A DNA stretch of 64,000 nucleotides, taken from NCBI GenBank assembly GCA_021799635.1, contig JAJZAB010000001.1, positions 1 to 64,000 on the forward strand, read 5' to 3'. The notes under the pieces were generated by a model that made no database searches, was not told the origin of the DNA, and saw nothing but the letters and a program-made list of their open reading frames with translations. The stretch is from Microcaldota archaeon (GTDB taxonomy: Archaea > Micrarchaeota > Micrarchaeia > Micrarchaeales > Micrarchaeaceae). Positions 1 through 50,792 of the stretch are shown in pieces. The position numbers and the translations under genes are program-made. The stretch's first letter is position 1, and every line of letters starts with the position of its first letter.

Positions 1-138
1 GCAGGCGTTGCCGCCGAAGGTGGTGCCGCTGAATATTCCCAGTTCAAAGAGGGCGCCGAGGACTACGGCGACTATGAGTATAGCCCAGCCGTAGGTCATG
101 AGGTATTCCATCGCGCTCTGCGATTTTAGTCTGTTCAT
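1..138 (-). CDS. Pilin-like class III signal peptide protein (3' part outside window)
   Basis: Only the first 46 codons are inside the window and the gene runs off the left edge. The N-terminus has a short basic stretch (MNRLK), then SQSAMEYLMTYGWAI and a long hydrophobic helix. This is the archaeal class III (type IV pilin-like) signal: prepilin peptidase cuts before the SQSAMEY segment and the helix packs into a pilus or adhesin fibre. Family assignment rests on this strongly conserved motif; the mature domain cannot be seen. It would need a secretion ATPase such as the one at 62028-63344, but that gene is far away and the link is inference. Confidence 0.85.
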   Translation of the reverse strand, partial: MNRLKSQSAMEYLMTYGWAILIVAVVLGALFELGIFSGTTFGGNAC

Positions 139-333
139 TCCAACAGTCACAAGTCAACATTATTCAACAGTTCAAAGTATTAATACATAGATAGTTTGCA
201 ATAATATTATTTTGTATCAAAATACCATCAACAGTAATCTATAAATATGCAGGCATATTATAAAATGGAACTTATCGAGGATATTTGACACTTCCGCTTT
301 TCCAGCTATGTAAAATGACGTTGTCCATGTAAG

Positions 334-343
334 CTTTAAATAT
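334..343 (+). promoter_or_regulatory. TATA-like box upstream of zinc-ribbon gene
   Basis: The A/T-rich element ctttaaatat lies about 90 nt before the start at 432, so the transcript would have a leader of roughly 60 nt ending in the ribosome-binding sequence GGGGTG. The rest of 139-431 holds no convincing ORF on either strand. Another A/T-rich stretch near 195-225 probably serves the divergent pilin-like gene. Confidence 0.4.
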
Positions 344-46853: not shown

Positions 46854-46933
46854 CCTGAACCCCGACAATGAATCCCACACTTTTTGGAGGGAGCAAGCAA
46901 AAACCTTATTAAATTAAGCTGTGATTGGTTAGT

Positions 46934-47437
46934 ATGTCAAAACTGCACAAAATCCTTGATGTCTTGGACAAGGCAATCAAAATCGAGACTGCATATGGGC
47001 ACTGCGACATACCGTGCGGAATATACGACCCGTACGCTGCCCAGGTTGCTGCACATACGGTCATACGCATGGACATGCTGATAGCCGATCTGGTCAAGTC
47101 CGGAGGGCAGACGGCAGACGACAGGAACAAAATGACCAGGTATATTATGATAAAGGAGCAGCACGCGGAGATCGTTAAGCACGAGATAAGAGTGTTGTGG
47201 GGGGACTATTTCAAGCCTGAGCACGCTAAGGCAAACCCACAGCTGCACACCATCGTATGGGATACCCTCAAGGCAGCATCCAAGGCGAAGCAGAGCACGA
47301 ACATTGCGGATGCAGAGGCCCTACTTGCCGATGTGCACAAGATGGCTGAGGCGTTTTGGAGCACCAAGAACATTGCAACCTCAAAGGTAAAGGCTCCATA
47401 CCCGACAGAAAGGGAGATGGTTCTGCCAAAACTCTGA
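46934..47437 (+). CDS. sodN: Nickel superoxide dismutase precursor
   Basis: The 167-residue protein has a 22-residue leader followed by HCDIPCGIYDP, the nickel hook of NiSOD (N-terminal His plus two Cys). The four-helix body has IKEQHAEIVKHEIRVLWGDYFKPEHAKANPQLHTIVWDTLKAAS, a close match to NiSOD. The leader must be removed between Gly22 and His23 so that the free His N-terminus can bind nickel; the protease is encoded next door (47466). It destroys superoxide. NiSOD is mainly known from Streptomyces, cyanobacteria and marine bacteria, so this copy looks acquired. Confidence 0.95.
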   Translation: MSKLHKILDVLDKAIKIETAYGHCDIPCGIYDPYAAQVAAHTVIRMDMLIADLVKSGGQTADDRNKMTRYIMIKEQHAEIVKHEIRVLWGDYFKPEHAKANPQLHTIVWDTLKAASKAKQSTNIADAEALLADVHKMAEAFWSTKNIATSKVKAPYPTEREMVLPKL

Positions 47438-47465: not shown

Positions 47466-47762
47466 ATGCTGTTTGGGCTATTCAAGGTTCGCGACAGGAG
47501 CATGCTGCCTAAAATCAAGGATGGAGATTATTTAATCGTCAGCATGATACCATATTTGTTCAGGAGGCCTTCCGTAAATGACATAATAGTCTTAAGGCAT
47601 CCAAAAAAAACGATCTTCTTGGTAAAGAGGATAGCAAGGGCATCAAAAAAGCACTACTACGTTGAGGGCGACAACAGGGAGCACAGCGAGGATAGCAGGA
47701 GCTTTGGATGGGTATCCGGAGGATTGATACTTGGAAAGGTTCTTTACGTGGTTAGGGCGTAG
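47466..47762 (+). CDS. sodX: NiSOD maturation protease (SodX-like, S26 signal peptidase family)
   Basis: The 98-residue S26-family protein has the catalytic Ser in RDRSMLPKIKDGDYLIV and Lys in FLVKRIARA, followed by the family box VEGDNREHSEDSRSFGWV. No N-terminal membrane anchor is visible, which fits the intracellular SodX type rather than a general signal peptidase. It starts 28 bp after sodN and should cut the NiSOD leader. The pairing matches the bacterial sodN-sodX unit. Confidence 0.92.
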   Translation: MLFGLFKVRDRSMLPKIKDGDYLIVSMIPYLFRRPSVNDIIVLRHPKKTIFLVKRIARASKKHYYVEGDNREHSEDSRSFGWVSGGLILGKVLYVVRA

Positions 47763-47789: not shown

Positions 47790-50558
47790 TTACCTTTCCC
47801 CGTATTTCGAATAAAAGGAGAGATACTGAGCCACTATGCTGTCCGGAGCCGATGGTTTTACCTTTTTAATTATCTCGTTGAGTATGTCCATGCCGACCTT
47901 CTCCTCGTTCGAAGACTTCAGGCTTTTCTCCAGAGCGGCGGTCTTGGCCTCCCTGCATACGTGGGAGATGTCCGCGCCGGTAAAACCGCTGGTCTGATTT
48001 GCAAGCTCATCAAAATCTACGTCATCGTCAAGAGGCACCTTCTTCAGGTTGCTTTTGAACATCTCAGCACGGTACTGCTTGTTGGGAGGCTTCACGAACA
48101 CGAGCTTGTCAAACCTGCCAGGTCTGAGCGCGGCCGGATCTATCGCATCTGGCCTGTTCGTGGTTGCGATTACCACTATGTTTTCAACCTTGTTTATGCC
48201 GTCTATCTCCCTCAGCATTTCTGTTGTAAGCTGTGATGAAAACTCGCTGGCCTGGCTCCTTTTTAGGATCAGGTTCTCCGCTTCGTCCAGCATTATTATG
48301 GCAGGCGCGTTCTCCCTCGCCCTGTTGAATGTTTCTTTTATAGACGCTGTGGCGCGCTCTATTCCCTCCTCGGCCAGGTCTGCGCCGTTTATCTCCAACA
48401 TCGAAACCCCCTTGAGGTCGTTGTACAACGCCTTTATCAGCAGCGTCTTGCCACAACCGGGTGGCCCGAATAGCAGTATTCCGTTTATGTTTTTGATGTC
48501 ATATTTTTTGACCAGCTCCCTGTGCAGCAGCGGAATCTCAACCGCCTGATAGATCGCCTTCTTCGCCTCATCAGTACCTATTACGTCCTCATCAACGCTG
48601 ATCTTTTCCCTGCTGTCCTCACCAGCCTCGCCGTGCACGCTCCTTTCGAAATCGAGCCTAAACTTGTTATACGCGTCTATCTGTGCGAGCGAGACGGAGG
48701 GCTTTATGGTATTTATCATGTTCAGTATGTCATTCTCGTTAATCTCTAGTACCTTGTGCTTCACTACAGCTTCCTGCGCTACAGTCTGCGCCACGCTTTC
48801 GCAGAGCACCTTTATATCGGCGCCGGTGTACCTCTGTGTTTTTTCAGCAAGTACGTCTACATTAAAAGATTTTGAAATTGGCAGTTTCTTGAGGTACATG
48901 CCAAATATCAGCTTCCTGGCGTTTAAGTCAGGCGGGGGCATGTATATCACCTTGTCGAACCTGCCTGGCCTGGTTATCGCCTTGTCCAGTATGTTGGGTA
49001 CGTTGGTAGCTCCAACAATTATTACATTGGTGGTCTTCTGGAACCCGTCCATTTCTACGAGCAGCTGGGAGAGAGCCTGCCTTGTAGTCTCGCTGACGCT
49101 AGCGTTGCTCCTGCTGGAGGCTATCGAATCTATCTCATCGAAGAAAAGTATGCATGGGGCGTGCTTCTTTGCTATTGAGAATATGTTTGATATCATCTTC
49201 TCGGTTTCCCCTGGAAAAGCTGAGATTAGGTTTGATGCCTTTACGTAATAGAAGCCTGCGTGTATCTCGTTTGCCAGCGCCCTCATCATCATAGTCTTTC
49301 CGGTGCCTGGCGGTCCGAAAAACAGTATCCCCTTCACCGGCTTTACGTTGTACGCCTTTGATATGCCCTTCCTTTCTATCGGTCCAAGAACCGCATCCTT
49401 AAGCTCCCTCTTGGTATTTTCATAGTTCCCTATGTCAGAAAACCTTTCTGTTACGTTGCTGGACTCAAGGTCTTCAAACGCCTCCCCGAATTTCATCCTG
49501 AGGTCCTGCTTCCTTATATCTAGAGACTTCACTATGCTGACGTTGAAAAACTCCAACACGAAGATGCTAAGAGGGGCCAGGAGAAAGCTTGCAAATGGTA
49601 TGATGGTGAACACCGGGGATGGGGCAAGGCTGTTGAATATTGATATTGATACGGCAGCGGCCGGGTAGCCTATCCCTATTATGCTCGCCTTGGAGCCGTG
49701 GTACTTGGACCTGCTTATTATAACCGCGTTGTCTATGAAAAGGACTAGGACTACAAGCACTATAAGCTCGATGAGGTAGCTGAAGGGCCTGATTCCAAGA
49801 GACGTTATCATTGCCGCTACTATGCTTGATATGTTGTTTGCTATCGAACTGTTTGAGAAGTTTGAGTACGCTATTGACAGTCCCTTGGAGAATGTCAGTA
49901 TTGTAAACCCTTGCCTATTCGGTGTTGTGTACTGCGTCACCTGGCTGCTTATGGTGGAGTGGGCGTAGTATGCGTTGTACACTATGAATGAGTAGTTCTG
50001 CACGCCGGATATGGCTGAGAGCGACACCACGGCAAAAACGAAAACCAGGGTAAGCAGTATAGCCCTCTTGTACCCTATAAGGAGTATGCCAAGTATGAAC
50101 ATTGGTATTGCGAGCACGTAGCCGAGCTGCGAGAAGGATAGGGTTATGAGCAGGTATATTAGGGTTATAGTACGATAGTGAATGCGGCCGTATATTAGTG
50201 ATATGCTTGCGATTATGATAAACAAAAATGACAGCGCGGGCATCTGGTACATCAGCAGCGGGAATATGAGCACCATGAGGAGTATGAGGCCAAGAAAGGG
50301 CTTTTTTACCGTCAGTCCGAAAAGCAGGATTCCAAATGCCAGTATTAATATTACCGGATAGAAGTGAAGCGATGCCGAAGCTGCAAGGAATACCAGTGTC
50401 ACAAGCAACGCATCAAGGAAGCCGGGATTGCTTACAAGGGCGGAAAGCCTCTCGTTTATTGTGTACAGCCCTATTGGAGTCCTGTGCACCTTTCTTATTA
50501 TATCCTCTAGTCTTTTGTCTTTAGCATTTTTTAGGTCTCCAAAACTGTAGTCCGCCAT
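47790..50558 (-). CDS. Membrane-integrated double AAA+ ATPase (Cdc48/VAT-like)
   Basis: The roughly 922-residue protein has a first 50 soluble residues, then about ten membrane helices (about residues 50-350) with a Ser/Asn/Tyr-rich 70-residue outer loop, then two AAA+ domains. D1: FGPPGTGKTMMM, ILFFDEIDSIASSR, GATNVPNILDKAITRPGRFD. D2: FGPPGCGKTLLI, IIMLDEAENLIL, ATTNRPDAIDPAALRPGRFD. Both have intact Walker motifs and Arg fingers. The AAA parts are typical of Cdc48/VAT unfoldases, but the usual N-domain is replaced by the membrane part. It may extract or unfold membrane proteins. It is convergent with sodX. Confidence 0.9.
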   Translation of the reverse strand: MADYSFGDLKNAKDKRLEDIIRKVHRTPIGLYTINERLSALVSNPGFLDALLVTLVFLAASASLHFYPVILILAFGILLFGLTVKKPFLGLILLMVLIFPLLMYQMPALSFLFIIIASISLIYGRIHYRTITLIYLLITLSFSQLGYVLAIPMFILGILLIGYKRAILLTLVFVFAVVSLSAISGVQNYSFIVYNAYYAHSTISSQVTQYTTPNRQGFTILTFSKGLSIAYSNFSNSSIANNISSIVAAMITSLGIRPFSYLIELIVLVVLVLFIDNAVIISRSKYHGSKASIIGIGYPAAAVSISIFNSLAPSPVFTIIPFASFLLAPLSIFVLEFFNVSIVKSLDIRKQDLRMKFGEAFEDLESSNVTERFSDIGNYENTKRELKDAVLGPIERKGISKAYNVKPVKGILFFGPPGTGKTMMMRALANEIHAGFYYVKASNLISAFPGETEKMISNIFSIAKKHAPCILFFDEIDSIASSRSNASVSETTRQALSQLLVEMDGFQKTTNVIIVGATNVPNILDKAITRPGRFDKVIYMPPPDLNARKLIFGMYLKKLPISKSFNVDVLAEKTQRYTGADIKVLCESVAQTVAQEAVVKHKVLEINENDILNMINTIKPSVSLAQIDAYNKFRLDFERSVHGEAGEDSREKISVDEDVIGTDEAKKAIYQAVEIPLLHRELVKKYDIKNINGILLFGPPGCGKTLLIKALYNDLKGVSMLEINGADLAEEGIERATASIKETFNRARENAPAIIMLDEAENLILKRSQASEFSSQLTTEMLREIDGINKVENIVVIATTNRPDAIDPAALRPGRFDKLVFVKPPNKQYRAEMFKSNLKKVPLDDDVDFDELANQTSGFTGADISHVCREAKTAALEKSLKSSNEEKVGMDILNEIIKKVKPSAPDSIVAQYLSFYSKYGER

Positions 50559-50683
50559 TATAACTACCATTCACCCGTACAATAAATTTGGTTCCGACTA
50601 ATATTTATACATCGCCTAGCCAGGAAGGCTACTCTATAAACGTAAATAATTATATAAATATTATTAGGTATAAAGGATTACTA

Positions 50684-50781
50684 CCCGTTGTAGCTCAATG
50701 GCAGAGCGGCCGGCTGTAGTCTGATGCTCTAACAACAGGTTAGATACCGGCAGGTTGGGAGTTCGACTCTCTCCAACGGGA
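50684..50781 (+). tRNA. tRNA-Tyr(GTA) with a 26-nt intron
   Basis: The acceptor CCCGTTG (50684-50690) pairs with CAACGGG (50774-50780), with C1-G72 as expected for archaeal tRNA-Tyr, discriminator A. The anticodon stem is GCCGG/CCGGC and the loop begins CTGTAG (GTA). Twenty-six extra nucleotides after position 37 (TCTGATGCTC onwards) form the intron. The T-arm is GGGAG TTCGACT CTCTC. Confidence 0.93.
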
Positions 50782-50792
50782 TTTGTGATGCA

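Follow-up and report, generated by a model that had tools for sequence, protein, structure and literature searches.

The window analysed here is the whole stretch of 64,000 nucleotides at positions 1 to 64,000 of contig JAJZAB010000001.1 from a Microcaldota archaeon (assembly GCA_021799635.1), and it contains on its minus strand a single open frame that runs from a stop at 47790 up to either of two ATG codons, one at 50570 (926 aa) and the other, taken as the start in the initial annotation, at 50558 (922 aa). The first of these codons lies 12 nt upstream of the second. Residue 5, the Met at 50558, is retained in almost all homologues and lines up with the first Met of most of them, so that conservation favors 50558 as the probable start. 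The layout initially read at this locus, namely about ten membrane helices with a large outer loop joined to two AAA domains, is recovered as ten transmembrane (TM) helices in the AlphaFold2 model and as two AAA modules, each with its lid, in Pfam. The features of this protein, hereafter membrane-AAA, are collected in Table 1. Nearby, the protein encoded at window positions 46925-47437 bears HCDIPCGIYDP, a hook characteristic of nickel superoxide dismutase, and the next gene (47466-47762) encodes a small peptidase of the S26 type, a possible processing enzyme for that protein. Positions 50682-50782 resemble a tRNA gene, probably tRNA-Tyr(GTA) interrupted by an intron behind the anticodon and unlisted by ARAGORN in bacterial mode.

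Table 1. Parts of the membrane-AAA gene and protein, with window positions or residue numbers (aa) and the basis of each assignment.
Feature	Position	Strand	Basis
Whole ORF, 926 aa; likely start 50558 (922 aa)	47790..50570	-	Open frame; Met5 conservation
Ten-TM membrane domain with an interfacial helix at aa 33-46	49548..50474	-	AlphaFold2 pLDDT 95.5, pTM 0.92; positive-inside test
TM1-TM5 spans	aa 50-67, 73-89, 91-109, 111-127, 132-145	-	AlphaFold2 model
TM6-TM10 spans	aa 150-165, 167-188, 262-285, 291-312, 319-341	-	AlphaFold2 model
Y108-Q109-x-P111 motif, outer TM3/TM4 turn	50238..50249	-	Alignment of 57 rows
Outer loop TM7-TM8 (aa 189-261), sparsely charged, N-x-S/T sequons enriched	49788..50006	-	AlphaFold2 model and charge test
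Juxtamembrane helix and linker, aa 349-375, KFGEAFEDL	49446..49526	-	Alignment and AlphaFold2 model
D1 AAA module, aa 376-640	48651..49445	-	Pfam PF00004; tree
D1 Walker A GPPGTGKT, aa 419-426	49293..49316	-	Alignment
D1 pore loop 1 SAFPGETE, aa 450-457, aromatic-x-G	49200..49223	-	Alignment
D1 Walker B ILFFDE, aa 474-479	49134..49151	-	Alignment
D2 AAA module, aa 660-926; the tail helix at the C-terminus ends in YGER, without HbYX	47793..48593	-	Pfam; alignment
D2 Walker A GPPGCGKT, aa 702-709	48444..48467	-	Alignment
D2 Walker B IIMLDE, aa 758-763	48282..48299	-	Alignment

In 71 Micrarchaeota sequences, both AAA modules keep the Walker A Lys, the Walker B Asp-Glu pair, the sensor-1 Asn, and both Arg-finger positions without variation, one Asp-to-Glu change in D2 being the sole exception, so that the Walker A, Walker B, and Arg-finger motifs reported for both AAA domains of the window protein are conserved in its relatives as well. 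Among the polytopic proteins of Thermoproteota, the D1 Walker B is degraded in three of the five sequences checked. The pore loop of D1 carries an aromatic-x-G motif in 45/51 sequences of the window's own order, 16/20 of other Micrarchaeota, and 11/11 of the Thermoproteota read, the position being non-aromatic in some family members, whereas D2, unlike that of Cdc48, has no aromatic residue at the corresponding place. Threading by other AAA unfoldases depends on this aromatic motif (PMC5511170). Since it is found in D1 and not in D2, the ring with the gripping loop is the one adjoining the membrane.

In the architecture of its motor, membrane-AAA resembles Cdc48, p97, and VAT, with two tandem AAA modules, complete Walker A and B motifs and Arg fingers, lids, and a tail helix, and p97 structures are the best fold matches of the whole model. 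However, it has a ten-TM N-terminal part and no CDC48_N domain, it lacks HbYX, neither its D1 nor its D2 groups with Cdc48 modules, and it scores below the cut-off of the NCBIfam CDC48 model TIGR01243 (461.3 bits vs 802.65). The source genome, a Micrarchaeota genome of 0.75 Mb, encodes a separate canonical Cdc48 of 720 aa, recognized by Pfam through CDC48_N (7e-26) and CDC48_2 (2e-14); with this protein as positive control, neither domain was detected in aa 1-372 of membrane-AAA. In a midpoint-rooted tree of 99 AAA modules, which is not read for the branching order among groups, each module clusters with its counterpart in relatives, away from canonical Cdc48. The D1 modules of Micrarchaeota, of the polytopic Thermoproteota proteins, and of shorter double-AAA proteins of about 600 aa from Sulfolobales (L213, L237-L243) form one group (99/95), and the D2 modules of the same families split off together beyond a branch (100/99) from all Cdc48 modules, although the Sulfolobales proteins have one TM helix in place of ten. 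The N-domain of a Cdc48 protein had been proposed to be replaced here; CDC48_N is indeed absent, but a Cdc48 with an exchanged N-domain does not agree with the AAA tree and the coexisting canonical Cdc48, which also rule out that this lineage recently gained the layout by fusion with Cdc48. Judged by its sequence, membrane-AAA looks like a separate old double-ring AAA lineage that is a relative of Cdc48 without belonging to it. It seems to have escaped surveys of this motor family; a survey of 2016 reported only Cdc48/VAT for archaea (PMC5070193). In eudicot plants, the Spaf-like proteins are double-ring AAA proteins of the Cdc48 group that likewise have a membrane anchor and no N-domain, their anchor being C-terminal and gained within plants (PMC5070193).

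Modeled with 57 homologues, the whole protein reached a mean pLDDT of 88.6 in AlphaFold2, and the membrane part alone reached 95.5 with a pTM of 0.92 and exactly ten TM helices. The density of Lys and Arg per 100 residues is 17.0 in the loops predicted inside and 2.0 in those predicted outside within the window's own order (17.1 vs 3.3 in other Micrarchaeota). Therefore, the membrane domain is predicted to be N-in/C-in, with the loop of about 73 aa between TM7 and TM8 outside. In this loop, the density of N-x-S/T is about five times that of the AAA part. TM1-6 are short (14-19 residues), and TM7-10 are longer (22-24). The best-kept membrane positions are P72, G94, Y108-Q109-x-P111, G166, and E340; the Y108-Q109-x-P111 stretch is the best conserved of all, with Y and Q present in 55-56 of the 57 aligned rows and P in 53.

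The reading that we favor, with restrained confidence and from sequence and model, is that membrane-AAA is a membrane-embedded double-ring unfoldase that extracts membrane proteins into the cytosol. As seen in the sequence and the model, ten TM helices are followed first by the D1 ring, which adjoins the membrane, and then by the more distant D2 ring, and the ATPase sites of both are intact. Six subunits would come together with their membrane domains arranged as a collar where substrates enter D1. Membrane or surface proteins that are misfolded, orphaned, or in excess would be recognized by the membrane domain, perhaps in part via the outer loop, the aromatic D1 pore loops would grip an exposed stretch, and ATP hydrolysis would pull the substrate inward, through D1 and then D2, into the cytosol for release to the separate LonB or Cdc48/20S proteases. 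AAA unfoldases such as Msp1, FtsH, and p97 pull from the face that corresponds to the membrane-proximal D1. Membrane-AAA could then serve the archaeal membrane as Msp1 or the motor of FtsH does elsewhere, without a protease of its own. The aromatic D1 pore loop, the intact ATPase sites, and the absence of FtsH fit such an unfoldase or extractor. However, Msp1 and FtsH manage with fewer than ten TM helices, so the membrane part may have another role.

Msp1 and its counterpart ATAD1 have one AAA ring and one TM helix. Membrane-AAA shares with them the membrane anchoring, the aromatic pore loops, the lack of a protease, and, by analogy, a similar proposed extraction mechanism, but it belongs to a different family with ten TM helices and two AAA modules. 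With FtsH it shares the character of a membrane-anchored AAA motor facing the cytosol, as the model and the charge bias predict for membrane-AAA, but it has two AAA rings instead of one and ten TM helices instead of two, and its C-terminus consists of D2 and a short tail without the M41 peptidase. Archaeal LonB is also a membrane-bound ATP-dependent machine, although LonB contains its own protease domain and membrane-AAA contains none.

The surroundings of the gene bear on a second explanation, in which the motor would be a biogenesis or assembly factor for the envelope, acting to remodel, insert, or export proteins like that of the S-layer or the subunits of large membrane complexes. Bcs1 is an assembly factor of this kind for the Rieske protein. 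In 11 of the 20 Micrarchaeota genomes read from outside the window's order (L115-L134, e.g., L124 and L133), spanning eight families that share ancestry and hence do not count as independent events, the membrane-AAA gene is followed on its own strand by a gene for an S-layer protein (PF05124, with E values of about 1e-14 to 3e-17). Counted by family, half of the other Micrarchaeota examined have this order. Since it persists at family-level distances, the adjacency suggests a connection to the cell envelope, and it would fit envelope assembly as well as removal. Moreover, genes for Nuo/Mrp-like antiporter subunits adjoin the gene in part of family f2 of the window's own order, which likewise speaks for biogenesis. 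However, the 200-560 nt that separate the gene from the S-layer gene do not point to cotranscription, neither kind of neighbor is seen in the family of the window's genome or at the Thermoproteota loci examined, and the order of the rings favors inward pulling, all of which makes a biogenesis factor unlikely. As further observations on these loci, the S-layer gene of the same 20-genome set is often followed by a conserved secreted or membrane protein of about 700 aa without a Pfam match, and in about ten genomes of family f2 (L045-L061) the gene adjoins either the antiporter subunit genes or DUF2070-like, dolichol-kinase-like, and polyprenyl-diphosphate synthase-like genes, all named by eye. 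Across the window's order, there is no conserved operon, and no substrate, adaptor, or protease gene adjoins the membrane-AAA gene.

A third explanation, which we consider improbable, is a membrane-tethered proteasomal ATPase that passes membrane substrates straight into the 20S proteasome. The 20S proteasome, like Lon, was found in 48/48 Micrarchaeota genomes, and related Cdc48 proteins end in HbYX, the proteasome-docking motif (9/11 canonical Cdc48, mostly from the same phylum). However, this C-terminus is absent from all 82 members of the membrane-AAA family, which have YGER-like tails or other ends. A relationship with FtsH itself was ruled out, as M41 occurs nowhere in the phylum sample (0/48 Micrarchaeota genomes). 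FtsH has been described as absent from archaea (PMC4343526). The initial annotation had named FtsH as a possible counterpart and linked proteases as something to look for; no protease is conserved at the loci in the window's own order, in other Micrarchaeota, or in Thermoproteota, and with HbYX lacking too, the parallel with FtsH does not extend to having or docking a protease.

The membrane domain could also be a transporter or channel for lipids, ions, or sugars, with the AAA rings only regulatory. Its ten TM helices, well-defined fold, and conserved positions are what such an explanation can draw on, but it resembles no known transporter in Pfam, in the PDB sequences, or clearly in PDB folds. 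It evolves far faster than the motor, with a class-level identity of 19% compared with 48% for D1 and 43% for D2, unlike a conserved transport site, and the related Sulfolobales proteins keep both AAA rings with only one helix. A transporter is, thus, very improbable. Pfam found no family match in aa 1-372, the PDB sequence search with the membrane domain gave no match, and Foldseek against the PDB returned nothing at E <= 0.001. The best VIA-align Z for this domain, 5.5, lies in the range common for helical bundles, and the membrane parts of ABCA and NosY exporters and UbiA were not trusted as fold relatives, as they reached a Z of 5.0-5.5 over about one third of the domain. A new fold is possible, judging from the model. 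A literature search, covering few subscription papers and preprints, returned no description of the membrane-AAA family or of the Sulfolobales form of about 600 aa. Together with the lack of Pfam and PDB matches, this agrees, within the databases compared, with the earlier statement that no protein with this layout had been described.

The last explanation, a membrane protein gene misassembled with a neighboring Cdc48 gene, is practically negligible, since the same fusion is one open frame in more than 200 separately assembled genomes and the source genome also has its own Cdc48; neither chance nor the misassembly that the initial annotation had considered accounts for such recurrence. The full layout is found in 57/60 near relatives, a few of these matching only the later part of the query (fragmented assemblies or a divergent membrane part). 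A profile of the membrane part detects 236/295 genomes of Micrarchaeota and 86 of the 96 good ones; some good genomes are without the gene, and one of them (G066) shows only Cdc48 and single-AAA modules. A contig scan over 84,980 species was run with a class-level subset (A5) of the membrane alignment, the broad one (A4) being too diverse. Over its full length, the membrane part was matched only by records of Micrarchaeota or of unnamed archaea, and short matches pointed to Thermoproteota.

Whole-genome searches covered Micrarchaeota and Thermoproteota. Among 349 sampled Thermoproteota genomes, the polytopic form (876-923 aa) is present in about 16 and the form of about 600 aa, with one N-terminal helix in most of those read, in about 17, so that the DPANN genomes first proposed for the search do not delimit the fusion. 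The N-terminal parts of the Micrarchaeota and polytopic Thermoproteota proteins align in hhalign from TM1 to about TM5 (probability 95, E 3e-8), compared with probabilities of at most 0.2 for three control membrane families, and on this sequence evidence they are homologous. Subgroup B of the polytopic Thermoproteota proteins gives no significant hhalign match alone and, therefore, its link rests on subgroup A and the AAA tree. The Thermoproteota member L267 has the motif PAMAYYSPGLG at the place of PAIAYQSPLLAW in Micrarchaeota. Two sets of matches were rejected: the Asgard sequences matching the polytopic query, when read, were soluble proteins with an N-terminal domain and no TM helix, and those from Myxococcota and Geothermobacter aligned only over a short AAA stretch.

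A further proposal, conceivable though doubtful, is that the ten-TM domain forms a protein-conducting, membrane-thinning path, that the family is an ancient second double-ring AAA branch of archaea, and that the Sulfolobales form is its reduced descendant. As to conduction versus anchoring or recognition, the short TM1-6 and the single-helix Sulfolobales form point in opposite ways. ERAD splits the work between a retrotranslocon (Hrd1/Derlin) and Cdc48, and if the membrane part does conduct protein, membrane-AAA would be a one-chain counterpart of this extraction machine. The family represents a second widely conserved double-ring family, which extends over Micrarchaeota and Thermoproteota, occurs alongside Cdc48, and is integral to the membrane. 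It is relevant to the way in which archaea, without FtsH, handle bad membrane proteins, a question made testable by the reduced form in the tractable Sulfolobales.

Several genomes contain further related genes. One genome (G018:C5; L070, L071) has two membrane-AAA copies, each about 50% identical to the window protein, and Thermoproteota genomes with the form of about 600 aa (G426:C2:184790, G335:C1:71870, and five others) often have a second double-AAA open frame of about 590-600 aa. In most Micrarchaeota genomes of the AAA scan, one further strong single-AAA open frame of about 500-580 aa is present; the three that were read, one in the window's own genome (C1:34166-34570, L004) together with L229 and L235, have a TPR-like start and form one group in the tree.
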